From Marinoscillum pacificum (GTDB taxonomy: Bacteria; Bacteroidota; Bacteroidia; Cytophagales; Cyclobacteriaceae): DNA of 64,000 bases. The position numbers and the translations under genes are program-made. The notes beneath the pieces were generated by a model, which saw nothing but the letters and a program-made list of their open reading frames with translations, ran no database searches and was not told the origin of the DNA. The stretch covers positions 1 to 64,000 of the forward strand of contig NZ_JAMZMJ010000007.1 in assembly GCF_024714495.1 (NCBI RefSeq), read 5' to 3'. Below are positions 567 to 35,117 of the stretch, in pieces (positions within the stretch are counted from its first letter, which is position 1; every line of letters begins with the position of its first letter).

Positions 567-3500
567 TCACCTCTTCCTCAACACAATCGGAAAATCATGA
601 CCTATGGAGAAGGTATTAGGATACTGAGGCATGTTTTTGTATTTCAGTGAGTATGCTGGTACCTGATCATCCAGGAAGGATTTGAGCTCATACACGGTGA
701 CTTTTTCATCTTCAGGAGCTCCATCTGCTTTGCCTTTAAGTGCTTCTAATACGGTGTAGGTAAACAGTCCATGGCCTAACTCTTGAAATTCGGTAGCTGT
801 TTGGTCTGACCCTGCGGCTGCCAAAATATGAACGCCTGCACTTCTGGATAGTTGGGCAAGCGCTTTTTCTTCTCCAGCACCGCGAGAAGCGAGTAACTGT
901 GTGGACCCTCCAGAATGACATGCATCGATAAATAGCACCTGCTTCAAAGCTTTGATGGATTTGAGTTTGTCTACTACCTCGGGAACAGGCAACGCTTCCA
1001 ACATCAATGCCTCTTCTTCATAAAGCCGGGTACAGTTGGTCGGAATGAAGAAGAATTTTTCGTTCATCATAGAGCCATGCCCAGCATAGAAGAAATAGAA
1101 CACATCCGTTGGTTTAATGACTGCAGATAGTTCTTCCAGTTTTTTCAGAATGTTTTCGCGAGTAGCCTCTTCATTGGTGATGAGTGTCGTTTCGATTTTC
1201 GTGAACAGGTTTTTACCTTGTTCTTCAACCAGTGAAGCAACACTTTTTGCATCGTCTACAGCATAATTGAGGTTGAGACGAGGGTTGGTGTATTCGTTTA
1301 TGCCTATTGAAAGCACATAACAAGCTGCTGTCGGTTCGTCTGCTGGTCTGTTGATTCGGAGTTCATCAGCTTTGGATTCTATCCGGCTGGAGCCAAAAGC
1401 AGATGCCTGAATGACATTTAGGCCAGGAACCAGATCCAGATGATACGATTTGGCGATGGAGTTTCCTTCTTTGGTGGATTTGAACTCGCTATCGGCAACT
1501 ACACGTTTACCATTTTGCAACACTTTGATTTCCTCAATACCACCACCCTGATCAGTTACTTTGACGATTAACTCAGTTTGCGAATCTGTGATTTCCTTGG
1601 TTTTTGGATAGACAATTTCCACTTTAGGAGGAGGCCGGTTGGCAATCTGATTGCTCAAACTACCTGTTTCCCGCTGTACGTTACTGCCCAGTAGGTTAAC
1701 AGTCAATTTTGGCTGGTAATACTCCTCGAAAAATTGATCCAGCGAATACAACTCATTCCCCTGGACGAAGTACATGGATTGCATGCCTTGCTGTGTGGAA
1801 TAGAAATGGCCAGAAGGGAGCATAGTGGTCCATCGGTTCTCATCCAGTAAAATGTGGGTGTAGAGCTCTTTTTGATTTTTTAGGTCCCAGACTTTTACCG
1901 TACCGTCCTGGCTGCCGGAGATCAACTGCTGACCATCTTCACTAAAAGTCAGCGATACCACACCAGATCGATGCCCCGTTAGTTCAAACTGTAATTCTCC
2001 TGTCTGGTTGTAGAGTCTGATGATATTATCCGCAGCTCCTGTAGCGATGAGTTTTTCATCTGGACTAAACACGGCACAATACACCTTGTCTTCCAACTTT
2101 TCACCAATTGATGTGACTTTACCACCATAATACAAGTCACGTAGAAATACCTGACCATCCCATCCGGTGGTTAGGAGCTGCTTGCCATCTGCACTTGTGA
2201 GAATATCATGAAGTCGGTCCTCGTGCATATCAAATTGGACAATTTCCTGACCTTTTTCCGGTTCACGAAGAGCATTATCCCAGGTGACCAATCCAGTTGA
2301 GGTGAAGGCTACCGTCATCGGTGTTTGGTACCAATCTCTGGCTGTTCTTGGCAGATCTTGAATGTATTCTCCAGTTTTAGCTTTCCAGGCGACCACTCGT
2401 CCACTCATGTCAATGCTAATTAATTGATCGCTATCCTGACTGAATCCGACAGTCATCACTGACTGGAATAGTGTTCTTGTCCAAATGGTATCTCCAGATT
2501 GGATATCCGAGACATAAACAGAGCCATCGGCAGCACTGCTAGCGAACAATTTTTGATCTTTACTCACTGCCAACCCAAGTACAATATCTTCATGAGCTGG
2601 ATAGGTTGTTTTGATCTTACCCGTCGTGTAATCCCATGCAAATACCTGTCTACCCACACGTTCGATGACCGTATTTGGAGGTAAGAATACATGCTTTTTG
2701 GTCGCTTTCATGATCCAGTAATCCACCAAATTATCCGTTAAGTGGCCTTTGAAAAGTCGGATAGGTGAAAGGTCTTTGGAGTTCACAATCTGAGGGATGG
2801 CTCCTCGATTGATCACCATCGTATCAGAAATGGGATGATAAAGCATATTGGAAATGTCATTAGCATCTCCCACATCTATTGACTCGATCAGTACACCAGT
2901 TTGAAGATTAAATCGATGGTATCCCAGGTTATTGTCTCGCTCAAATTTATCCTGTACTCCTTCCAGGTAGATGGCAGATAAAATAGTTCCTTCATTGTTG
3001 ATCGCCAGGTCATTAAATTTGAAAGAAATCCCAGTGGTGATCTGTTGCGGAGCTAGCAGGACTCTTGGTTCTTGTGCCGGATCAATAGACCACTGAATAA
3101 TGCCTTGAATTTCTGACCCGATGATGAAGGATTTGCTATCTGGTGTGAAAGCAATGGAAGTGATTCCCGAATGACTGAATTTGGAAACATCATAGTATTG
3201 ACACTGATTGATCAATTTACGTTTTGGTATGTTCCAAAGACTAACCTGTCCATTTCGGTCCACAACAGCCATCCATTTGCCATCAGGACTTACACCCATC
3301 GAGTGCTGACAGTTGTAATTGCAATAAGTGCGCTCCCCGTCTAAAAAAGCAATTGGATCATCCTTTTCCAGTGACCAGATGGTAGCCACTTTTGGTCCGG
3401 CAATGATCATTTCTTTGCCATTTGGAAGGAATTGACCAGTTTGTAAATAGCCATCTTCAGGAGTCAGAGTCTTGATAAGTTTACCAGTGGTTACCTCATG

Positions 3501-3800
3501 GATCAACCCGGTCCCATTTTGAATGATCGAAAGGATCAACTGACCATCCGGACTGAAATCTAGTGATTCCACATTGTCTTCACAATCTATTCTTCTAAGT
3601 TCTCTTCCTGTTTCCCAATCCCAGAGTACGATGCTGCGATCATATGCGCCAGAAGCTAAAATTTTTCCGTCATCAGAAAAGGTCATGGCCGTTACACTGC
3701 TGTAGTGCCCCGCCTCAATTCTTAATTCGACAGGTAAATCCTGTGCAATGAGGGTATGGGCGAATAGAAATGTTATGGCAAAGGCGATATTGAATCTCAT
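567..3800 (-). CDS. Secreted WD40-repeat caspase-family (C14) protein
   Basis: The product is 1077 aa. I chose the ATG at 3800 over one at 3818 because it starts directly with a signal peptide (MRFNIAFAITFLFAHTLIAQ). About residues 30-660 carry many WD40 repeats, seen as DG..LASG...IVLWD patterns, ending with one reading SQDGTVKVWDLK. An Ig-like domain lies near 730-810. A caspase/metacaspase domain fills about 830-1070, with the catalytic His in YAGHG (about 908) and the Cys in DACHSGG (about 961), so the dyad is intact. Peptidases of this family cleave after Arg/Lys or Asp; the target here is unknown. The signal peptide places it outside the cytoplasm. It is divergent from an ECF sigma gene with a 124-bp gap. 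Related WD40-caspase fusions occur in Cytophagales, but a role is not established. Confidence 0.9.
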   Translation of the reverse strand: MRFNIAFAITFLFAHTLIAQDLPVELRIEAGHYSSVTAMTFSDDGKILASGAYDRSIVLWDWETGRELRRIDCEDNVESLDFSPDGQLILSIIQNGTGLIHEVTTGKLIKTLTPEDGYLQTGQFLPNGKEMIIAGPKVATIWSLEKDDPIAFLDGERTYCNYNCQHSMGVSPDGKWMAVVDRNGQVSLWNIPKRKLINQCQYYDVSKFSHSGITSIAFTPDSKSFIIGSEIQGIIQWSIDPAQEPRVLLAPQQITTGISFKFNDLAINNEGTILSAIYLEGVQDKFERDNNLGYHRFNLQTGVLIESIDVGDANDISNMLYHPISDTMVINRGAIPQIVNSKDLSPIRLFKGHLTDNLVDYWIMKATKKHVFLPPNTVIERVGRQVFAWDYTTGKIKTTYPAHEDIVLGLAVSKDQKLFASSAADGSVYVSDIQSGDTIWTRTLFQSVMTVGFSQDSDQLISIDMSGRVVAWKAKTGEYIQDLPRTARDWYQTPMTVAFTSTGLVTWDNALREPEKGQEIVQFDMHEDRLHDILTSADGKQLLTTGWDGQVFLRDLYYGGKVTSIGEKLEDKVYCAVFSPDEKLIATGAADNIIRLYNQTGELQFELTGHRSGVVSLTFSEDGQQLISGSQDGTVKVWDLKNQKELYTHILLDENRWTTMLPSGHFYSTQQGMQSMYFVQGNELYSLDQFFEEYYQPKLTVNLLGSNVQRETGSLSNQIANRPPPKVEIVYPKTKEITDSQTELIVKVTDQGGGIEEIKVLQNGKRVVADSEFKSTKEGNSIAKSYHLDLVPGLNVIQASAFGSSRIESKADELRINRPADEPTAACYVLSIGINEYTNPRLNLNYAVDDAKSVASLVEEQGKNLFTKIETTLITNEEATRENILKKLEELSAVIKPTDVFYFFYAGHGSMMNEKFFFIPTNCTRLYEEEALMLEALPVPEVVDKLKSIKALKQVLFIDACHSGGSTQLLASRGAGEEKALAQLSRSAGVHILAAAGSDQTATEFQELGHGLFTYTVLEALKGKADGAPEDEKVTVYELKSFLDDQVPAYSLKYKNMPQYPNTFSIGHDFPIVLRKR

Positions 3801-3902
3801 GAAGCAATAATTGGTCAATAAGTCAAAACTAATTCAATTGTATTTCGCAGATTCATTTTAACCATGGTTTTGTGAAACGTCTAATTAGAATAAACCGTAT
3901 TT

Positions 3903-5024: not shown

Positions 5025-6179
5025 ATGGAAAAATCGTTTGACATAGCAGCCCTTATTCACAGGTCTTTTCGGGAGGAGTTGACTGCAGGTGAAGTTCAGC
5101 AGCTCCAGGAATGGAGAAAAGAAAGTGTTGCGAATGAGGAGTTGTATCAAGAGCTTTTGGATCACTCCAGGGCTTTGAGCAAAATGGAAGTCTATCAACG
5201 ATTTGATTCTGTAAAGGCATGGTCATCCATTCAGGGGAAGCTTGAAGAACCGAAAGTTGTTCCACTTTATTCGAAAGTGTGGCGATATGCTGCTGCGGTT
5301 TTATTTCCGGTTTTGATGGCCGGAGCTATTTTCTACTACTTCCAAGGCAACCAGGATCCATTGGCAGGTATTGATGAGGCTATAGTTCCTGGTATGGAAC
5401 AAGCAGTTTTGATTTTGTCTGATGGAAGTCAAGTTGACTTGACAAGTGAGGAAGCATCTCAACCTATTAAACAAGGAGCGGTGAATATTTCCAATCATCA
5501 AAGCAAACTTCAGTACGAAGAGGAGATTACAGATATTCCAGAACCAGTTGCTGCTTACAATGAACTACAAACCCCGAAAGGTGGTATTTATCAACTGCAG
5601 CTGGCTGATGGGACAAAAATCACTCTAAATGCTGCGTCTTCTATTCGATTCCCGGTGTCCTTTACGGATAGTACTAGAACAGTTTACCTGGCAGGAGAAG
5701 CATTTTTTGATGTTACTCACACGGGAAAACCCTTCATCGTGCATAGTGAAATGCAAGCGGTACGAGTGTTAGGAACACAGTTCAATGTGATGGCTTATGC
5801 GGATGAGTTAATTGTGGAAACTACGCTGGTAGAAGGAAAAGTACAAGTGGAAACTGCTGACAATAAGCAGCTATTAAAACCTGGTGAACAGGCAGTATTG
5901 GACCAAAATACTTTAACTGTTCAGGCGGTGAACACCGACAATTACACCTCCTGGATGGATGGAAAGTTCCAGTTTAAGAATAGCTCGATGGAAGAAGTGA
6001 TGAGGCATTTGGCTCGCTGGTATGACTTCTCGTATGAGTTTGAAAATGAGAAGGTCAAGAGCCTTCACTTTACGGGTCGTATTGACAATCAACAGCAGAT
6101 CTCGGCGATTCTGAAAATGCTGGAAGTAACGACCGCAGTGACTTTTGAATTTAACGATGAACAAATCATCATTCAATAA
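5025..6179 (+). CDS. FecR-family anti-sigma factor
   Basis: The product is 384 aa. Residues 1-85 are cytoplasmic and should hold the sigma factor. A transmembrane helix spans about 86-106 (YAAAVLFPVLMAGAIFYYF). The periplasmic part has the FecR domain at about 175-280 (LQTPKGGIYQLQLADGTKITL; AFFDVTHTGKPFIV) and a C-terminal DUF4974 secretin/TonB short-N-like domain at about 315-384. It should relay contact with the N-terminal STN domain of the receptor at 6258 to the sigma factor at 3925. It is 78 bp before the receptor gene and probably co-transcribed with it. Length and domain order are normal for Bacteroidota. Confidence 0.93.
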   Translation: MEKSFDIAALIHRSFREELTAGEVQQLQEWRKESVANEELYQELLDHSRALSKMEVYQRFDSVKAWSSIQGKLEEPKVVPLYSKVWRYAAAVLFPVLMAGAIFYYFQGNQDPLAGIDEAIVPGMEQAVLILSDGSQVDLTSEEASQPIKQGAVNISNHQSKLQYEEEITDIPEPVAAYNELQTPKGGIYQLQLADGTKITLNAASSIRFPVSFTDSTRTVYLAGEAFFDVTHTGKPFIVHSEMQAVRVLGTQFNVMAYADELIVETTLVEGKVQVETADNKQLLKPGEQAVLDQNTLTVQAVNTDNYTSWMDGKFQFKNSSMEEVMRHLARWYDFSYEFENEKVKSLHFTGRIDNQQQISAILKMLEVTTAVTFEFNDEQIIIQ

Positions 6180-6257
6180 AAATGGGAAATGCGGCAACAT
6201 CTCCCATTCTAATTTTTCCAATTAAAAGACGTGTAAATCTTTCAATCATTTAAAGGT

Positions 6258-8903
6258 ATGAAAAATCTAACCAAATTTCCTACTTCCTGGTTCCGACAGG
6301 CGCTGGTCATCGGCCTGGCAGTGCTGCTCTCGCTGCTATATCGGAATGTTTATGGGCAAGCAGCTCCAAAAATTGATCTGGACTTAAAAGAGGTCACTTT
6401 TGAGGAGGCTGTGGAAGAATTGATCAAAAAGACCGATATCAATATCATTTATAACAACGAACAGATTAAGGACATTCCAAGAGTGACGCTTCAGATGAAA
6501 CAAGTCACTGTAGAAGAAGCTCTTGAGGAGTTGTTAAAAGAGTCGAAGTTGACTTATCGTAAAATCAACGAGACGATCGTCATTGGGCCAATTGAGGATA
6601 CTCCGAACACGCCCTTACCTCCGGGGTTCAAGCAAACATTACGGGGTACCATCTACGACAAGGATTCTCAAGCCCCACTATCCTTTGCGACGGTACAGGT
6701 AATCACTACCGAAACGGTAAAAGGTGCCATTTCAGATATTGATGGGAATTTTAGTATCACCAATTTACCAATCGGTAGACACTCAATCAAGGTTTCTTTT
6801 GTTGGCTATGAGGATGCGTTCGTAAATGATATTTTGCTGGGTACTGGTAAGGAGACGATCATCAAAGTTTCTTTAACGGAGCAATTGACCAACCTAAGTG
6901 AGGTAGTGGTGACAGCTTCCAATGGCGAACCGATCAATGAAATGGCGACCGTTAGCGCTAAGTCGTTTGACGCGGAAGAAACCAAGCGTTATGCCGCTAG
7001 TATCAGTGACCCTGCTCGTATGGCGTTAGTCTTTGCTGGTGTGGCTACAACGGATGATGCATCTAATGAAATTGTTATCCGTGGTAACTCTCCCAACTGG
7101 ATGCTTTGGAAGCTGGAAGGGGTTGAGATACCAAGCCCAAATCACTTTGCAGAAGAAGGCTATTCCTCTGGAGCGATCAGTATTGTTAGTGCCAACATGC
7201 TCGGCAACTCTGATTTTTACACTGGAGCTTTTTCTGCTGATTATGGCAATGCCTTGTCCGGGATTTTTGATCTGAAACTTCGAAACGGAAATAATCAAGC
7301 GTATGAGCATACCTTTCAGGCAGGAGTTCTAGGTGTAGACTTTGCCTCAGAAGGTCCTTTCAAAAAAGGCTACGATGGATCTTATTTGTTTAATTACCGC
7401 TACTCGACTTTGGGATTGCTCAATGCTTTGAACTTTGCGGTATCAGAAAACGCGCTTCCCAGTTATCAGGATCTGTCATTCAAGTTCAACTTGCCCACCA
7501 AGGAGGTGGGTACATTCGCTATCTGGGGCATTGGTGGATTGTCAAAAGCTGTGGAGCATTTTGAGCCAGACTCCATTGATTGCGAAGATTGGAAATATGG
7601 GTACCACGATGATACTTATACCGGCATGTACGCTTATGGCGTAACTCACAATTACTTCATTGATAATAATTCTTTTGTAGAAACAGTCCTATCTCATTCC
7701 AAGAGCTTTAGTGATCAGAACTATGAGGAAATGGATTCCTCCTGGACATTGAGTCCACGATTTCAGGATGATTTAAACAAAGGGTCTGTGAGGTTGAGTT
7801 CCTACTACAACAGAAAGGTTAATAGCCGATTGACGATGCGTACAGGAGCTATTTTAAGCCGTTTGAATTACAATTATGAATCGCGTGGATGGAGCAATTC
7901 AAAAAATGACTGGCTAGTGGAAGTGGATACGGAAGGTCACACCTATTTGTATCAGGGTTACCTCATGGGAAAGTACAAGTTTACTGACAAGATAGTTGCT
8001 ACTGGCGGAGTTCATTATATGCGTTTTGAATTGAATAAAGATCAGGTCATTGAGCCACGACTGAGCTTGGCAGTGGGAATGAAGAATCAGCAAAAATTGA
8101 CTTTTGGCTATGGTCGACACAGCCGTCATGAGAGTTTGCCTCTTTATTTTGTAAGAACCTATGCAGATAATGGACGGATTTACCTACCCAACAGAATGTT
8201 GGAGCTGACCAGAGCATCTCACTATGTGATTGGTTATGAGAAAGCCGTTTCCAAGTACTTAAATTTTAAGGTGGAGGGTTATTATCAAAAGGTGAATAAT
8301 CTGCCAGTTCCAAATAATCCTGACAAGTACTACACACCAATATTCGGTGGTTTTAGCGACCAGGATACTTTAGTGAATAAAGGGCAAGCCAGAAACATTG
8401 GGCTGGAGTTGACTGTCCAGCGAACATTTGCCAATAATTATTACTTCCTGGTGACGAGCTCTCTCTTTGATTCCAAATACCAGCCGCTTGATGGCAAGTG
8501 GTACAATGGTGAATACAACCTTAATTATGTAAACAATTTTGTGGTTGGAAAGGAATTTGAATGGGGCGAGAACAAACGAGTTGGCTTGAACTCCAAAGTG
8601 ATGTGGACTGGAGGAAAACGTCAATATCCAATAGATCTGGAACGATCTATCGCTGAAGAAGAAACCTATACATTTGAAAATCAACCATGGGCCTATCAGA
8701 CCAGAGATTACTTCCGAATAGATGCAGGAGTCAAAGTTCATTTTTATAAGAATGGAAAAGAACAGGTGATTTCTCTCGACATTCAGAATGTGACTAATCG
8801 CTTAAATACCTGGGCAGAGTACTATGATCCTCAAACGAATCAGGTTGAGATTGCTACTATGGCAGGGTTAATACCAATTTTAAATTACCGCTTAGAATTC
8901 TAA
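6258..8903 (+). CDS. TonB-dependent outer-membrane receptor with STN signalling domain
   Basis: The product is 881 aa. A signal sequence covers about 1-34. An STN domain (about 38-115) interacts with FecR-type anti-sigma factors. A CarboxypepD_reg-like beta-sandwich (about 128-215, ISDIDGNFSITNLPIGRHSI) precedes the plug (about 230-345) and the beta-barrel, which ends RLEF with the expected C-terminal aromatic residue. With the sigma and FecR genes it forms a transport-and-signalling unit. The ligand cannot be read from sequence. No SusD partner is next to it, so siderophores, metals or peptides are as likely as glycans. Confidence 0.9.
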   Translation: MKNLTKFPTSWFRQALVIGLAVLLSLLYRNVYGQAAPKIDLDLKEVTFEEAVEELIKKTDINIIYNNEQIKDIPRVTLQMKQVTVEEALEELLKESKLTYRKINETIVIGPIEDTPNTPLPPGFKQTLRGTIYDKDSQAPLSFATVQVITTETVKGAISDIDGNFSITNLPIGRHSIKVSFVGYEDAFVNDILLGTGKETIIKVSLTEQLTNLSEVVVTASNGEPINEMATVSAKSFDAEETKRYAASISDPARMALVFAGVATTDDASNEIVIRGNSPNWMLWKLEGVEIPSPNHFAEEGYSSGAISIVSANMLGNSDFYTGAFSADYGNALSGIFDLKLRNGNNQAYEHTFQAGVLGVDFASEGPFKKGYDGSYLFNYRYSTLGLLNALNFAVSENALPSYQDLSFKFNLPTKEVGTFAIWGIGGLSKAVEHFEPDSIDCEDWKYGYHDDTYTGMYAYGVTHNYFIDNNSFVETVLSHSKSFSDQNYEEMDSSWTLSPRFQDDLNKGSVRLSSYYNRKVNSRLTMRTGAILSRLNYNYESRGWSNSKNDWLVEVDTEGHTYLYQGYLMGKYKFTDKIVATGGVHYMRFELNKDQVIEPRLSLAVGMKNQQKLTFGYGRHSRHESLPLYFVRTYADNGRIYLPNRMLELTRASHYVIGYEKAVSKYLNFKVEGYYQKVNNLPVPNNPDKYYTPIFGGFSDQDTLVNKGQARNIGLELTVQRTFANNYYFLVTSSLFDSKYQPLDGKWYNGEYNLNYVNNFVVGKEFEWGENKRVGLNSKVMWTGGKRQYPIDLERSIAEEETYTFENQPWAYQTRDYFRIDAGVKVHFYKNGKEQVISLDIQNVTNRLNTWAEYYDPQTNQVEIATMAGLIPILNYRLEF

Positions 8904-8910
8904 TAAGAGA

Positions 8911-8931
8911 GGAGTGTGTTTGTCACACTCC
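8911..8931. terminator. Shared terminator between convergent genes
   Basis: GGAGTGTG and CACACTCC form a perfect 8-bp stem with a TTTGT loop, 8 bp after the receptor stop and 3 bp before the end of the opposing gene. It lacks a long T tract on the plus strand. Confidence 0.6.
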
Positions 8932-8933
8932 TA

Positions 8934-10037
8934 TTAATTTGCTTGAGCCTGGAGCTCTCGGTTACTAAGTTTTAAATAGTGGTAACCATTCCAGTAGTCA
9001 TCCGACATGTTATTAGCTGCTTCATCAAAGAAGACATCTGTTTTGGACATTTCAATGTGAGGGAAATTGTCCAGGTTGGCGGTGTTGATGTTGTTGTTGA
9101 TCAGGATACAGTTGAACTCATAAACTTTATCCATTTCGAAGTACTCTCCTTTGTAGGTTACCGCCGTAAGATTGTATCGGCCATTCAGAAACTCATACTC
9201 CTCAGTCCATTTCGCATACTCCCAAAAGGTACTTCTGGCTGCATCAGGCTCATAGATCATTTTCACAATGGCATAAGTTTCGTCTTCGATGTACAAAGTG
9301 CCAGAAACATACCCTTTACGATTCTTAGGTTTGAAGCTTACTTCATAGACTGAATGCTCTTGGTAAGGTCGCTTGCCTTCGTACTCAAACTCATAATGCT
9401 TTCGATTACGCCTGCTTAAGAAGGAGTTTTTTCTCCATATAGAGGATATGGCCATGTCATGAGCATGCCCACTCATCATGGTGGCGTTTCCAGAGATATC
9501 ATCCGGGTTCACTACGTTCTTTCTGGTTTTGATAGGAGCTATTTTGATATTGTTCAACCGCACGTTTGGAGGCATTAGAATATCCAGAACACCCTCAGCC
9601 AGGTAGACCATTGAGCTATCTGAAAGTAGTTTTTCTTTGTAATAACTGGTTAGTCGAAGAGGCTCCATCTCATAGTTGGTAATCAATCGATCGAATACTC
9701 GACCCATTAATATATCACCAGTTAATACGGTCACTGCATCTAGAGCTAAGGTAGACTCTTTTAGTTCTACATTGAATTTAGTGCGATTTTCAACCTTTTG
9801 AGTAAAGGGTTCAAAGCCAATGAAAGAGATTTGGATAACCGTATCTTCAGGATGTTCTTTCAAGATGACGAACTGCCCATCTAGATTACTGATGGTAGTT
9901 GAATTTCCAAGGGTGACGTGAGCAAATGGTATGGGTTCTTTGGTAAGAATATCTGTCACCTGGCCAGAAATCTCCTGGGCAAATGAGTAGTACCCTGCAA
10001 TGAAGCAGAGGACAATTGTCGCGGTGTGTCTAAGCAT
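8934..10037 (-). CDS. Secreted CarboxypepD_reg-like domain protein
   Basis: The product is 367 aa. A signal peptide covers 1-20 (ending SFAQ). A CarboxypepD_reg-like domain (about 22-100) carries ISGQVTDILTKEPIPFAHV and SNLDGQFVILKE, typical of Bacteroidota outer-membrane proteins. The remaining about 260 residues are rich in beta-strand patterns and contain several aromatic blocks (YEFEYEGKRPY, YKGEYFEMDKVYEF), as in proteins annotated only as carboxypeptidase-like regulatory domain proteins. No catalytic residues are seen. It probably sits in the periplasm or at the outer membrane. It converges on the TonB receptor gene. The exact role is unknown. Confidence 0.75.
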   Translation of the reverse strand: MLRHTATIVLCFIAGYYSFAQEISGQVTDILTKEPIPFAHVTLGNSTTISNLDGQFVILKEHPEDTVIQISFIGFEPFTQKVENRTKFNVELKESTLALDAVTVLTGDILMGRVFDRLITNYEMEPLRLTSYYKEKLLSDSSMVYLAEGVLDILMPPNVRLNNIKIAPIKTRKNVVNPDDISGNATMMSGHAHDMAISSIWRKNSFLSRRNRKHYEFEYEGKRPYQEHSVYEVSFKPKNRKGYVSGTLYIEDETYAIVKMIYEPDAARSTFWEYAKWTEEYEFLNGRYNLTAVTYKGEYFEMDKVYEFNCILINNNINTANLDNFPHIEMSKTDVFFDEAANNMSDDYWNGYHYLKLSNRELQAQAN

Positions 10038-10181
10038 GTTGGTGGTTTACTTCGACGAATGAACGAAATAAACGGATGAAAATCAAGTTGTTACACATGA
10101 AAAACAATGTATCAACCTGTATTTTTAGCGGAATTGTAAAAAGAAGAAGCTCCAATGAGGTTGATTTACCAAAATGGAAAC

Positions 10182-10208
10182 AAAAAAGGCAGGAGTTACC
10201 CTGCCTTT
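10182..10208 (-). terminator. Intrinsic terminator after lspA
   Basis: On the minus strand AAAGGCAGG pairs with CCTGCCTTT and is followed by a run of T. It is 24 bp past the lspA stop, the right place and direction to end the ileS-lspA transcript. Confidence 0.75.
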
Positions 10209-10231
10209 GATATTGTATTAGATTTTATCTC

Positions 10232-10873
10232 TTAATTCTCCGTTTCAGCTAGTTCAGCTTTTTGTTCTTCCTTTTCTTCATGACTCCCAAAGTAGCGCTT
10301 TTGGAAAATGAGGATAAACGTGATCCCTAAAAAGATGGAAGCATCTGCCACGTTAAACACTGGCCAAAGTGCCATGTAATCACCGCCTATGATTGGCACC
10401 CAGTCAGCAATACGACCTTCCCAAATATCGATGTAGAACATGTCTACTACCTGTCCATAAAACCATGGAGTAGGAGCATCAAACGGCGCATTGTCTAACC
10501 AAACACCATAGAAAATACTATCTACCAGGTTCCCGATTGCACCACCAAGAATCATAGCGATACAGATCAATAAGCCATTGCTATGTTCTTTCTTGTAGAG
10601 CGTATAAAGGTAATACCCAATGGCAACCATGGCTCCCAAGCGGAAGATGGTCAATACCAGCTTTCCATTATCGATGAAGCCAATTTCCATTCCAAATGCC
10701 ATTCCCGGGTTGGTCAGGTAATGCAACTTAAACCAGTCCCCAAAGATTTGGATTTGACCTTGAGACCCCTTGGTCATGTTGAAATGCACGGCCATTTTTA
10801 CAATCTGATCAATACCTATAACCAGTAAACTGATTAGGTAAAAGATGTATAGCGGGGTTCTTTTTTTCTCCAT
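10232..10873 (-). CDS. lspA: Lipoprotein signal peptidase (signal peptidase II)
   Basis: The product is 213 aa, somewhat longer than the usual 160-170 because of a charged C-terminal tail (KEEQKAELAETEN) and a central insert. Four transmembrane segments are visible. The catalytic aspartates lie in VVDMF and NVADASI, the family signatures. The enzyme removes the signal peptide of prolipoproteins at the lipobox cysteine in the inner membrane; several lipoproteins of this window (SusD, SusE, GH97) would be substrates. It lies downstream of ileS, a common pairing, with a palindromic repeat at 10919-10991 between them. Confidence 0.95.
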   Translation of the reverse strand: MEKKRTPLYIFYLISLLVIGIDQIVKMAVHFNMTKGSQGQIQIFGDWFKLHYLTNPGMAFGMEIGFIDNGKLVLTIFRLGAMVAIGYYLYTLYKKEHSNGLLICIAMILGGAIGNLVDSIFYGVWLDNAPFDAPTPWFYGQVVDMFYIDIWEGRIADWVPIIGGDYMALWPVFNVADASIFLGITFILIFQKRYFGSHEEKEEQKAELAETEN

Positions 10874-10918: not shown

Positions 10919-10991
10919 TGTCATTCTGAATTTATTTCAGAATCTAATTCATCTTTTAAAATTATAGATCCTGAATCAAGTTCAGGATGAC
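10919..10991. repeat. Paired-hairpin intergenic repeat (TTCAGGATGAC type)
   Basis: Two hairpins lie side by side: ATTCTGAA/TTCAGAAT (10923-10943) and ATCCTGAA/TTCAGGAT (10968-10988). The outer ends GTCATTCTGAA and TTCAGGATGAC also match each other inverted, so the unit could fold as one long stem. This type of GTCATTCTGAA...TTCAGGATGAC element is frequent between genes in Bacteroidota. Confidence 0.7.
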
Positions 10992-11020: not shown

Positions 11021-14000
11021 TTATTTAGCTACCTCAAGGTCAACAGTCATTTCCAGACCGTCAATATCCAGTGAAGTACCACCATTAGCTTGTTCAACAT
11101 ACTCCAAAGAAAGCGCCTGGGTTTCTTTTTGGATGTAATTTTTGTAAGCCTCTACTGAAGTTTTTAATAAATCGTCAGTTGTATGATAGCTTACTTTGAT
11201 CTTATCCTGTACCTCAAGGCCTTTATCTTTTCTCAAGTTCTGCAGTCTGTTGACAACATCTCGGCTAATACCTTCTTGTTTCAAATCATCCGAAATGGTG
11301 ATATCCAAAGCAACAGTCAAACCATCTTCACTCGCAACTAACCATCCTGGAATGTCTTCTGATGTGATTTCCACATCTTCCAGTCCAAGTGTGATAGTTT
11401 CGCCATCAAGATCCAATTTAAATTCACCTGATTGCTCTAGTGATTTGATTTGATCCTGATCCATTTGGTTAATCAATGGAGCCAACTGCTTCATCTTCGG
11501 TCCAAAATGTTGACCCAGTTTACGGAAGTTTGGTTTGATTTTCTTTACCAATATTCCAGAAGCGTCATCTACATACTCTACTTCTTTCACGTTGGTTTCA
11601 GAGATAATCAATTCAGCAACTTTCTCAATTCTTTCCTTATCTGCTTCGTTTAAGATTGGAATCAACACCTTATGTAATGGCTGACGTACTTTGATCTTCT
11701 CTTTCTTTCTCAAGCTGTGAACCAAAGAAGAAGCACTTTGTGCCAAATGCATGCGTTTCTCTAACTCCACATCGATCAACGACTCGTCTACCTTAGGGAA
11801 ATCCGCTAAGTGAACCGACTCGCTTTGATCCAATCCAGATACGGCGTTCAAGTCTTTGAACAATTGCTCAGAGTAGAACGGAGCGATTGGAGCAGAAAGT
11901 TGTGCTACGGTCACCAATGCTGTGTAAAGCGTTTGGTACGCAGCTTCTTTGTCTTCGTTGTATTCTCCAACCCAGAAACGTTTTCTATTCAAACGAACAT
12001 ACCAGTTACTTAGCTCATCCGTCACAAAGTTTTGGATTGCTCGAGCTGCTCTAGTTGGCTCATATTCATTAAATGCCGCATCCACTTCTTTGATCAGACT
12101 GTTCAGTCTACTCATTACCCAACGGTCACTCTCCGTACGTTTCTCCATCGGAAGAGCCGGTTTAGAGAAGTCAAACCCGTCAAGGTTCGCATATAGCGCA
12201 AAGAAGGAATAGGTATTAGCAAGTGTTCCGAAATACTTACGTTGTACTTCAGCAACACCTTCTATGTCAAATTTCAAGTTGTCCCAAGGGTTGGCGTTGG
12301 AGATCATGTACCAACGAGTCGCATCAGGACCATATTTATCCATGGTTTCGAATGGGTTGATGGCATTGCCCAATCGCTTAGACATTTTGTTGCCATTTTT
12401 ATCCAATACGAGACCATTCGCAATAACGTTTTTGAACGCTACTTTATCATAAAGTAATGTAGCAATCGCGTGAAGTGTAAAGAACCATCCACGAGTCTGG
12501 TCTACGCCTTCCGCAATGAAGTCTGCTGGATAGTTCGCATTGAATACATCTTCATTCTCAAATGGATAATGCCACTGAGCGTAAGGCATCGCACCAGAGT
12601 CAAACCAAACGTCAATCAAGTCCGGCTCACGGTACATTGGCTCACCTGTAGAACTCACAAGGATCACATCATCTACATATGGTCTGTGTAGATCAAAGTC
12701 ATCACCGATTTCTTCACTTATATGACCAGCAGCAATTGATTTCTTCACTTCTTCCTGAAGCTCAGCAATGCTGCCGATACACTTTTCTTCTTTTCTATCT
12801 TTGGTTACCCAGATTGGCAGTGGAGTTCCCCAGAATCTAGAACGGCTCAAGTTCCAGTCCACTAGATTTTCCAACCAGTTGCCGAAACGACCAGATCCTG
12901 TAGAAGCAGGCTTCCAGTTGATCGTTTTGTTTAGCTCAACTAATCGATCTTTTAGTGCAGTGGTTTTGATGAACCAGCTATCTAGTGGGTAGTATAATAC
13001 AGGCTTGTCAGTTCTCCAACAGTGAGGGTAACTGTGCTCGTATTTCTCTACCTTAAATGCTTTGTTGTCTTCTTTCAGCTGGATGGCAATCAACACATCC
13101 GTTGGCTTGAAGTCCTTGTCACTACGTGTAGCATCGTCGTAGTATTCTTCCTTCACAAACTTGCCTGCAAAGTCAGTTACTTCGTCAACGAATTGACCTT
13201 TTTTGTTCACCAATGGCACATCATAACCCTGATCGTCCTTCACCATCACGGCAGGAACACCAGCTTGCTGTGCTACTCTAAAGTCATCCGCACCAAATAC
13301 TGATGCTGTGTGAACGACTCCAGTACCATCTTCTGTCGATACGAAATCTCCAGGGATAACTCGGAAGGCATTTTTCTCCAAGTCTTCGTTCGTTACATAG
13401 GGCATCAACTGCTCGTAACGTACCTCTAGAATGTCTTTACCTGTGAACTCAGATACGATCTCAAATGGGATCAACTTGTCACCAGGCTTGTAATCTCCTA
13501 GGGCTACTTCTTTTGCCTTATCAGAGAAGAACTTGCCAACCAAATCTTTGGCCAGAACTACACTTAAAGCAGCTCCAGTGTATTGGTTGTAAGACTTCAC
13601 TTTCACATAAGTGATCTTTTCACCTACAGCAAGCGCACAGTTAGATGGCAAGGTCCACGGAGTTGTCGTCCATGCAAGGATTCTTACATCTTCGTCATCA
13701 GACTCAAATAGGAAGGCAGAATGATCATCTTTCTTCACCTTAAACTGAGCCACGATAGACGTGTCTTTTACATCCTTATAAGTACCCGGTTGGTTAAGTT
13801 CGTGTGAGCTCAAACCCGTACCGGCAGCAGGAGAGTATGGCTGTACAGTATATCCTTTATATAGAAGTCCTTTTTCGTATAGCTTCTTCAATAGATGCCA
13901 TAGCGACTCCATGTATTTCTGATCAAAAGTGATGTATGGATCATCCAGATCAACCCAGTAACCCATTTGCTGAGTGAGACGATCCCACTCATCTTTGAAA

Positions 14001-14380
14001 CGCATCACCGTTTCTTTACACTTCTGGTTGTATTCGGCTACAGAGATAGTCTTACCGATATCATCTTTCTTGATACCTAGTTCTTTCTCTACCTGAAGCT
14101 CAACAGGAAGTCCGTGCGTATCCCAGCCACCTTTACGTTTTACCTGAAAACCTTTTTGTGTTTTGTAACGGCAGAAAATATCCTTTACAGTACGGGCCAT
14201 CACGTGGTGAATACCCGGTGTTCCGTTGGCAGATGGAGGACCTTCATAAAATGTGAATGTCTCTGCTCCTTCACGCTCTGTTACTGACTTCTCAAAGATT
14301 TGTTGGTCAGCCCAAAATTTCAATACCTCTTCTGCTATCTGAGGGTAACTGACCTGTTTGTACTCTGGATATTTAGCCAC
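11021..14380 (-). CDS. ileS: Isoleucyl-tRNA synthetase, type 2-like with swapped HIGH motif
   Basis: The product is 1119 aa, longer than the about 940 of type 1 bacterial enzymes and close to the eukaryote-like type 2 form. It attaches isoleucine to tRNA-Ile. The Rossmann fold carries the first signature as G56-I57-H58-H59 (in NGTPGIHHVMARTVKD), that is GXHH instead of HXGH. KMSKR is at about residue 664. The editing (CP1) domain lies between, and the anticodon-binding domain follows. The GXHH swap is described for a subset of type 2 IleRS and tied there to very high mupirocin resistance. No second ileS is in the window. The start ATG at 14380 gives the usual N-terminus. Confidence 0.96.
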   Translation of the reverse strand: MAKYPEYKQVSYPQIAEEVLKFWADQQIFEKSVTEREGAETFTFYEGPPSANGTPGIHHVMARTVKDIFCRYKTQKGFQVKRKGGWDTHGLPVELQVEKELGIKKDDIGKTISVAEYNQKCKETVMRFKDEWDRLTQQMGYWVDLDDPYITFDQKYMESLWHLLKKLYEKGLLYKGYTVQPYSPAAGTGLSSHELNQPGTYKDVKDTSIVAQFKVKKDDHSAFLFESDDEDVRILAWTTTPWTLPSNCALAVGEKITYVKVKSYNQYTGAALSVVLAKDLVGKFFSDKAKEVALGDYKPGDKLIPFEIVSEFTGKDILEVRYEQLMPYVTNEDLEKNAFRVIPGDFVSTEDGTGVVHTASVFGADDFRVAQQAGVPAVMVKDDQGYDVPLVNKKGQFVDEVTDFAGKFVKEEYYDDATRSDKDFKPTDVLIAIQLKEDNKAFKVEKYEHSYPHCWRTDKPVLYYPLDSWFIKTTALKDRLVELNKTINWKPASTGSGRFGNWLENLVDWNLSRSRFWGTPLPIWVTKDRKEEKCIGSIAELQEEVKKSIAAGHISEEIGDDFDLHRPYVDDVILVSSTGEPMYREPDLIDVWFDSGAMPYAQWHYPFENEDVFNANYPADFIAEGVDQTRGWFFTLHAIATLLYDKVAFKNVIANGLVLDKNGNKMSKRLGNAINPFETMDKYGPDATRWYMISNANPWDNLKFDIEGVAEVQRKYFGTLANTYSFFALYANLDGFDFSKPALPMEKRTESDRWVMSRLNSLIKEVDAAFNEYEPTRAARAIQNFVTDELSNWYVRLNRKRFWVGEYNEDKEAAYQTLYTALVTVAQLSAPIAPFYSEQLFKDLNAVSGLDQSESVHLADFPKVDESLIDVELEKRMHLAQSASSLVHSLRKKEKIKVRQPLHKVLIPILNEADKERIEKVAELIISETNVKEVEYVDDASGILVKKIKPNFRKLGQHFGPKMKQLAPLINQMDQDQIKSLEQSGEFKLDLDGETITLGLEDVEITSEDIPGWLVASEDGLTVALDITISDDLKQEGISRDVVNRLQNLRKDKGLEVQDKIKVSYHTTDDLLKTSVEAYKNYIQKETQALSLEYVEQANGGTSLDIDGLEMTVDLEVAK

Positions 14381-16985: not shown

Positions 16986-17411
16986 CTATGATTTTCTTAT
17001 TCGCTTAGGTAATTCAATATTCTTTTCATCTATGATGGTTTTGGCTGTTTCGATAATTTGATCCATTACTCTATTGATACTTGATAACACTTCATCATCA
17101 GTAAATCTCAAGAAAGTGAATCCAGCAGATTCTAAATTTTGTTGTCGTACTTTATCATTTTTTACTACCTCTTCATAGCTATGTGTAATGCCATCTACTT
17201 CAATAATTAGCATTAGCTCTTTACACATAAAATCAGCTATGTAATTCAGAACAGGTCTTTGTCTTCTGAAAGTAAATCCGAGTATGTTGCCCGCTCTAAG
17301 GACATACTTCCACAGACATGCCTCTGCCTTCGTCATATTGTTGCGGTTGGCTCTGGCGTGTTCCTTTAGGTTTTTATTGTAGCCATAATTGTTTTCTTTT
17401 CCGGCTTTCAT
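16986..17411 (-). CDS. DUF559 (very-short-patch-repair-like) endonuclease-domain protein
   Basis: The product is 141 aa. The fold is of the restriction-endonuclease type. It shows the family opening (YNKNLKEHARANRNNMTKAE, CLWKYVLRAG), then GFTFRRQRPVLNYIADFMC and LMLIIEVDGITH. The D of IADF and the E-V-D of IEVDG fit the metal-binding PD-(D/E)XK-like residues, and FLRFTDDEV closes the domain. Cellular roles are unknown; relatives include the Vsr mismatch nuclease. It is 18 bp upstream of the dgt stop in the same direction order, and an inverted repeat (16889-16974) follows directly. Whether it cuts DNA here is inference. Confidence 0.85.
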   Translation of the reverse strand: MKAGKENNYGYNKNLKEHARANRNNMTKAEACLWKYVLRAGNILGFTFRRQRPVLNYIADFMCKELMLIIEVDGITHSYEEVVKNDKVRQQNLESAGFTFLRFTDDEVLSSINRVMDQIIETAKTIIDEKNIELPKRIRKS

Positions 17412-33632: not shown

Positions 33633-35117
33633 TTATTCCTCAAAAGCCCAATCAATGCCTGTTTTCATGTCTTTTACGATCACTCCCTCAGCTTTTAGCT
33701 TAGCTCTCAGCTCATCCACTTTGTCGTAGTTCTTCGCTTCTTTAGCTACTTTGTATTCTTCAAGGATGACTTCTAGAAGGTTTTGTGAAGACAAGTTTGT
33801 CTCTAATTTTAGCCCTAGAATTTCCTCACAGAAAGCAATGAAGGTGCTCTTCATGCGCTCGAAAGTCTCTTTGCCAATCTCCTCAAATTTCAATTGACCA
33901 GTTTGGATAGAGTTTACTTTCTTCACCAGGTTAAACAAATGACCAATCGTCAAAGCAGTATTGAAGTCATCATTCATCGCATGGTAGCAGTTGTCACAGA
34001 TTTTGTTGATCTGCTCTGCTTGTTTTGTGTTAATTTCTTCTGCTAAACCTTCAGGATATTCATAGTTTTTGATCAGTCTTAAGCCGTTCGCCAACTTCAT
34101 ATAACCTTTCTGTGCTGCATCCAGTGCTTCATTGGAGAAATCCAATGTGCTTGCGTAGTGAGACTGAAGCATGAAGAAACGGATAGTCATTGGGCTGTAG
34201 CCATGCTCTAACAATTCATGATCGCCAGAAATCAACTCATGTGGTAAGAATGAATTGCCAAGTGACTTACTCATCTTGGTTCCGTTTACCGTAAGCATGT
34301 TGGTATGCATCCAGTATTTGGCTCCTTCTTTACCAGTAGAACCTGCATTTTGTGCAATTTCACATTCATGGTGAGGGAATTTTAGATCCATTCCACCTCC
34401 GTGAATATCAAATTCTTCACCGAGATACTTGGTGCTCATCACCGAACACTCCAAATGCCACCCCGGGAATCCATCGCTCCATTTGGTATTCCAACGCATG
34501 ATATGCTCTGGTGCGGCTTTTTTCCAAAGCGCAAAATCCAATGGGCTTCTCTTGTCCGATCCACCATCCAATTCTCGAGTTTGATTCAGTAAGTCTTCGG
34601 TTTTTCTACCACTCAACTTACCATAATCATACTTTTCATTGAATTTGCTAATATCAAAGTATACAGATCCATTAGATTCATAAGCGAACCCATTATCTAC
34701 AAGCTCCTGAATCATGTCCAGTTGCTCCATCAAGTGACCAGTCGCCGTAGGCTCGATATCTGGTGGCAGGATGTTGAATGTTTCCATTACTCTATGGAAG
34801 TCATTCGTGTATTTCTGCACGATTTCCATAGGTTCCAGGTTTTCTAACTTGGCCTTTCTTGAAATCTTATCCTCACCAGTATCATCCAATAGGTGTCCTA
34901 CATCTGTGATATTGCGCACATATCGCACTTTATATCCTAAAAATTGTAGGTATCTGTAGATCACGTCAAATGACATGAATGTTCTTACATTCCCCAGGTG
35001 AACATCACTATAAACCGTAGGCCCACATACGTACATTCCCACGTGAGGAGCGTTTAACGGTTCGAATACTTCTTTTTCTCTGGACAATGAGTTTACAACT
35101 CGGAGTTTTCCGATCAT
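33633..35117 (-). CDS. cysS: Cysteinyl-tRNA synthetase
   Basis: The product is 494 aa, the family length. It charges tRNA-Cys. The HIGH motif is HLGN in CGPTVYSDVHLGNVRTF and the KMSKS motif is in GTKMSKSLGN. The zinc ligands are visible as Cys of YVCGPT, Cys of WHLECSVMS and His/Glu of HHECEIAQ. The anticodon-binding helical domain (about 350-494) is complete. The gene is divergent from rimP, whose promoter lies in the 160-bp gap. Confidence 0.97.
   Translation of the reverse strand: MIGKLRVVNSLSREKEVFEPLNAPHVGMYVCGPTVYSDVHLGNVRTFMSFDVIYRYLQFLGYKVRYVRNITDVGHLLDDTGEDKISRKAKLENLEPMEIVQKYTNDFHRVMETFNILPPDIEPTATGHLMEQLDMIQELVDNGFAYESNGSVYFDISKFNEKYDYGKLSGRKTEDLLNQTRELDGGSDKRSPLDFALWKKAAPEHIMRWNTKWSDGFPGWHLECSVMSTKYLGEEFDIHGGGMDLKFPHHECEIAQNAGSTGKEGAKYWMHTNMLTVNGTKMSKSLGNSFLPHELISGDHELLEHGYSPMTIRFFMLQSHYASTLDFSNEALDAAQKGYMKLANGLRLIKNYEYPEGLAEEINTKQAEQINKICDNCYHAMNDDFNTALTIGHLFNLVKKVNSIQTGQLKFEEIGKETFERMKSTFIAFCEEILGLKLETNLSSQNLLEVILEEYKVAKEAKNYDKVDELRAKLKAEGVIVKDMKTGIDWAFEE

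Follow-up and report, generated by a model that had tools for sequence, protein, structure and literature searches.

The ileS locus

The window, i.e. the whole stretch of 64,000 nucleotides analysed here, carries on its minus strand an ileS gene for a type 2 isoleucyl-tRNA synthetase (IleRS; 11021..14380), an open reading frame of 1119 aa with a GTG start and a frame free of stops. The product matches TIGR00392 with 1001 bits (cut-off 621.4) and carries the Pfam domains PF00133, PF08264 and PF19302, that is, the class I core, the anticodon-binding domain and the PF19302 domain. The codons GGT ATT CAC CAC at 14215-14204 of the minus strand encode Gly56-Ile-His-His59 (14204..14215, the reverse complement of which, GGTATTCACCAC, translates to GIHH), a non-canonical class I signature. 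The second signature motif, KMSKR, is at residues 665-669 (12374..12388, minus strand, coordinates computed from the ORF start).

The original prediction held that GIHH stands at residues 56-59 in place of HXGH, and the codons and the alignment to solved type 2 IleRS agree on this point. GIHH sits on the HVGH columns of PDB chain 8c8u and on the GVHH columns of 8c8w, and as the alignment to these Priestia megaterium IleRS2 chains has no gap near GIHH, the motif is not displaced. A normal HXGH elsewhere in the protein was also looked for, and no H-x-G-H occurs over the whole 1119 aa. The motif is of the G/AXHH kind, i.e. it has G or A in first place and His in third and fourth place at the HXGH position.

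Downstream of ileS lies lspA, the gene of signal peptidase II (10232..10873, minus strand, PF01252). An lspA relative is found downstream of ileS in 62 of 80 named loci (L006-L085; within the flank, directly or a few genes on, some of them truncated). A DksA-like gene lies between or beside the two in 36 of the 80, under Flavobacteria and Sphingobacteria titles plus a few others; it was not found in the Cytophagales-titled loci among the 80. A 47-kb record labelled as a Parabacteroides distasonis plasmid (L212) contains ileS (with GIHH), a TraR/DksA-type gene and lspA at 5992-10580, and it probably represents a chromosomal piece that was closed as a circle by assembly.

The 147-nt spacer between ileS and lspA folds far better than its shuffles (z -5.7). 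It contains an imperfect inverted repeat (10920-10991, arms GTCATTCTGAA ... TTCAGGATGAC on the plus strand), of which three more near-full copies with 82-84% identity, as well as shorter ones, are present elsewhere in the genome. None of the 14 related loci that were checked has the exact 11-base ends of the repeat. The repeat appears to be a dispersed REP-like element that has inserted in this strain. Other features of the window include a 1083-aa protein that combines WD40 repeats with a caspase-like domain at its C-terminus (567-3818, PF00656) and a DUF559 protein (16986-17411) with a weaker match to the REase-named family PF18741, below the cut-off of that family.

Type 2 assignment and copy number

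The enzyme had been described as type 2-like on account of its length and its KMSKR motif, and comparison with both types supports this. Among PDB entries, the P. megaterium IleRS2 chains match best, with residues 17-1106 aligned. The scores are 810-823 bits for P. megaterium IleRS2 and 774 for the Thermus thermophilus enzyme, as opposed to 316-325 for the IleRS1 of Staphylococcus aureus and P. megaterium, i.e. the window IleRS is closer to IleRS2 over its full length, with the motif in register. PF19302 is located at residues 923-1117, and the C-terminal cysteines of the Escherichia coli IleRS1 row face non-cysteines in the alignment, so the protein has a type 2 C-terminal domain that lacks the IleRS1 zinc motif.

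The absence of a second ileS, first noted for the window, extends to the host genome (6.4 Mb, 32 contigs, completeness 100, contamination 0.53). A protein similarity search and a TIGR00392 search over the 32 contigs found no second copy: only one TIGR00392 match was above cut-off, while 14 of 14 control genomes, including E. coli and Bacillus subtilis, were positive. The window gene thus codes for the only IleRS found in the genome. In the similarity search there was one full-length match; the 4 others cover parts of two more distant enzymes. The distant class I matches of the genome have canonical HXGH signatures, namely HMGH, HVGH and HIGH in proteins that we take to be ValRS-, LeuRS- and MetRS-like, respectively, from similarity and motif context. 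A CysRS-like protein in the window (33633-35117) has HLGN, which is usual for CysRS.

Conservation among Bacteroidota

The nearest named locus by identity is that of Ekhidna lutea (76%), and the best-ranked titles are mostly Cytophagales; on IleRS similarity, the organism is placed near Ekhidna. The motif was readable in 79 of the 80 named loci and was G[I/V]HH in each, with 78 distinct motif contexts (71 GIHH and 7 GVHH). In a survey of the phylum, an IleRS match at E <= 1e-60 was present in 295 of 296 genomes, and in a set of nearest relatives in 18 of 19, the own genome being counted in both. Motif readings come from 113 of the 295 other survey genomes (29 + 40 + 14 + 30) and from 16 of the 18 other near relatives; the genomes were picked by score and then across families, so these readings are not a random sample.

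The final alignment contains 207 Bacteroidota rows, with 176 GIHH, 20 GVHH, 4 GLHH, 1 GMHH and 6 rows without the N-terminus. In other words, G[I/V/L/M]HH is found in 201 of 201 readable rows and HXGH in none of them, where 201 is a count of rows and not of independent species, since the same gene is in some cases represented by several pieces or near-copies. Five of the six rows without N-terminus are gene parts whose N-terminus was read in another locus, L029 being the exception. Sequences shorter than 940 aa were excluded from the alignment, and the motif-bearing fragments read among them also have GXHH. KMSKR is present in 121 of the 207 rows. Ser50, a residue of the window IleRS, is shared by 123 rows, and 116 of these have KMSKR.

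A search for members of the phylum that lack an IleRS2 gave two cases, in both of which an assembly gap seems likely: genome G176 has only an IleRS fragment at a contig end, with GIHH, and the assembly of G302 yielded no ileS, its class I matches all being more distant. Two IleRS matches were seen in 15 of the 296 genomes, scoring being confined to the two best candidates per genome; the 12 that were rechecked contain neighbouring or contig-broken pieces of one gene (the others are G057, G103 and G281).

As far as it was read, GXHH is the normal state for the phylum, and since it is the only form seen in the relatives read, nothing sets this organism apart. The swapped signature is thus a genuine but ordinary observation. 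The type 2 assignment, the published link of the motif to resistance and the single ileS all stand; the idea of a special enzyme does not, given the uniform motif of the readable rows.

Phylogeny and age of the motif

Of the 212 aligned rows, 102 went into a quick maximum-likelihood tree, for which 1100 columns were used with the motif left in. Besides the window IleRS, these are 18 random Ser50 rows, 78 other readable Bacteroidota rows with a length of 1000 aa or more, and 5 rows from outside the phylum survey: two with GIHH (Acetoanaerobium and a viral-collection contig), two HXGH type 2 enzymes and E. coli IleRS1. The motif needs a single change on this tree, in which only 3 rows have HXGH. 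The HXGH type 2 enzymes, from Sutcliffiella and MupA, fall outside a 99-row GXHH group with 98% SH-aLRT, and this group also includes the Acetoanaerobium enzyme and the one from the IMG/VR contig. The weight of the tree is limited by the small number of HXGH rows, by the very long branch of the E. coli type 1 root and by 15 rows with odd letter make-up. A 15.8-kb IMG/VR contig (L218) encodes an IleRS with GIHH that is 43% identical to the window IleRS in the best segment.

Residue 657, which is Leu in the window IleRS, is the counterpart of the mupirocin-stacking Phe586 of P. megaterium IleRS1 and His582 of its IleRS2. In the first row set, which contained no row of the large family f17, Leu was found in 175 of 177 rows and Met in 2. 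When 30 genomes were added, His657 appeared in 12 GVHH rows that form one nested clade on the tree. T. thermophilus IleRS has Leu at this position and a canonical HVGH motif (PMC10485003). A coupling of Leu657 to GXHH, which we had considered, is rejected on account of these GVHH rows and of the T. thermophilus enzyme. One clade has His657 with the motif untouched, so the motif and the neighbouring contact residue would evolve separately.

Another variable feature is found at the paired-cysteine sites (window IleRS residues 183, 186, 454, 457, 526, 529, 576 and 578). Other type 2 IleRS have cysteines at the four sites, which presumably bind zinc, but most of these are absent from the window IleRS. 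Seven of the eight residues are Cys in the Sutcliffiella and Acetoanaerobium rows. The cysteines are mostly lost in Bacteroidota: all 123 Ser50 rows have 0 or 1, while all 8 are present in 10 rows of other lineages.

On balance, we lean slightly towards the view that GXHH is ancestral in the sole IleRS across GTDB Bacteroidota, with no reversion in the rows read and with the motif and residue 657 evolving independently of each other. If so, a target insensitive to mupirocin-class drugs would be a feature of the whole phylum and would predate any recent exposure.

Origin of the swapped signature

What drove the change is a separate question. The swap may be an old structural alternative that was fixed early in the phylum, in which case mupirocin resistance would be a by-product and not the cause of selection; we consider the chances of this explanation to be about even. 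The lack of HXGH in the readable rows and the single motif change on the tree speak for it, and so does the ordinary housekeeping character of the locus, with lspA, or a DksA-like gene and lspA, downstream. However, fixation is silent on the original pressure, the rows are not an unbiased sample and include few HXGH sequences in the tree, and Brkic et al. favour antibiotic pressure, albeit with no direct test (PMC10485003).

It is very unlikely that the gene was acquired as a MupA-like mupirocin resistance determinant alongside a sensitive housekeeping ileS. MupA and the window IleRS are both type 2 enzymes linked to mupirocin resistance, but the staphylococcal MupA is plasmid-borne, has HTGH as its motif and is 38.5% identical to the window IleRS. 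For the assembled genome, a mobile second copy of this type is rejected, as a single ileS was found there, upstream of lspA as in most relatives examined. Least probable of all, and practically ruled out, is a mutation, a sequencing error, a wrongly set frame or a canonical HXGH at another place in the protein: the frame is intact, H-x-G-H is lacking, five genomes of the same genus with 85-98% identity have the identical motif, and the readable relatives all share its form.

Implications for mupirocin resistance

The reading that we prefer, with a probability of about 0.9, is that the gene codes for the single housekeeping IleRS of a Cytophagales-like member of the Bacteroidota. The enzyme would be of type 2 with the described GXHH variant, and catalysis and a high mupirocin Ki are expected of it by homology. 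The link between GXHH and mupirocin hyper-resistance, which the original prediction had drawn from published work, can be traced to Brkic et al. 2023, where the Ki is raised up to ~1000-fold (PMC10485003). In that study G/AXHH was found in 86 type 2 enzymes of 379 sequences. The Deinococcus radiodurans IleRS2, with a natural ALHH, has a mupirocin Ki of 6600 uM, which falls to 8.1 uM upon exchange to HVGH, an 823-fold loss of resistance, while the reverse change brings a gain of ~175-fold in T. thermophilus and ~430-fold in P. megaterium (table in PMC10485003). The crystal structures solved for P. megaterium IleRS2 with a mutant GVHH indicate that the third His is able to replace the first His in catalysis; its clash with mupirocin comes from a model (PMC10485003).

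By homology with these enzymes, the third-position His of the window IleRS would do the catalytic work that falls to the first His in HXGH, and the same bulky residue would, according to the published model, collide with mupirocin (PMC10485003). Given such a clash, the drug should bind the enzyme only at the millimolar level. Both catalysis and the high Ki are published for homologues and are predicted for this enzyme and organism; natural mupirocin resistance of the organism is a reasonable expectation. The literature search on mupirocin and Bacteroidota found no kinetic or MIC values for the organism.

Phenotypic support from within the phylum is thin. Mupirocin at 50 mg/L corresponds to ~100 uM, a concentration that a canonical type 2 enzyme in cells might also partly withstand. 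A Bacteroides isolate was obtained on agar and in broth with 50 mg/L mupirocin and subcultured; the passage reporting it draws no conclusion on resistance (PMC9022498). Such growth fits the predicted resistance. It is no proof of the mechanism, as Gram-negative permeability could give resistance whatever the target. Model-based work on culture media predicts a higher diversity of Bacteroidaceae when mupirocin is added (PMC13085705). Pointing the other way, for a collection of gut strains that includes Bacteroidetes, the relevant passage reports mupirocin resistance genes in Actinobacteria only, as called by annotation and not by a susceptibility test (PMC8128205).

The importance of the single window gene is small. 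The kind of enzyme is already known, and its apparent fixation throughout the phylum is the only part of some general value, in that a published resistance signature is extended from individual enzymes to an apparent rule of a whole phylum. We would predict that mupirocin has a weak effect on Bacteroidota and may give them an advantage in mixed communities. Resistance-gene tables could also be affected: a Flavobacteriaceae genome paper lists isoleucyl-tRNA synthetase under mupirocin (PMC10835994), and an entry of this kind may be a housekeeping gene only.

Comparison with known systems

The ileS of Bifidobacterium is likewise an IleRS tied to natural resistance (the MIC for B. breve is above 1024 ug/ml), but it belongs to another phylum, and other substitutions and mupB are blamed there (PMC11091697). 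The IleRS2 of P. megaterium (PDB 8c8u/8c8w) provides the closest solved structures by sequence; its natural motif, however, is HVGH, with GVHH in a laboratory mutant only, and the species has an IleRS1 besides IleRS2 (PMC10485003).

As to taxonomic range, the passages of Cvetesic et al. 2016 on the owners of type 2 IleRS list other phyla and do not contain the term 'Bacteroid' (PMC4861432). The term is also absent from the main text of PMC10485003, the figures, supplements and source data of which may well include Bacteroidota. The natural non-canonical enzymes with a published Ki in that text, those of D. radiodurans (ALHH) and Streptomyces griseus (cited there), are not from Bacteroidota. 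Going by the published description (PMC10485003), these G/AXHH enzymes and the window IleRS are alike in being type 2 and in having motif positions 1 and 3 swapped; the window IleRS differs in species, in having GIHH where D. radiodurans has ALHH, and in its KMSKR as the second motif.
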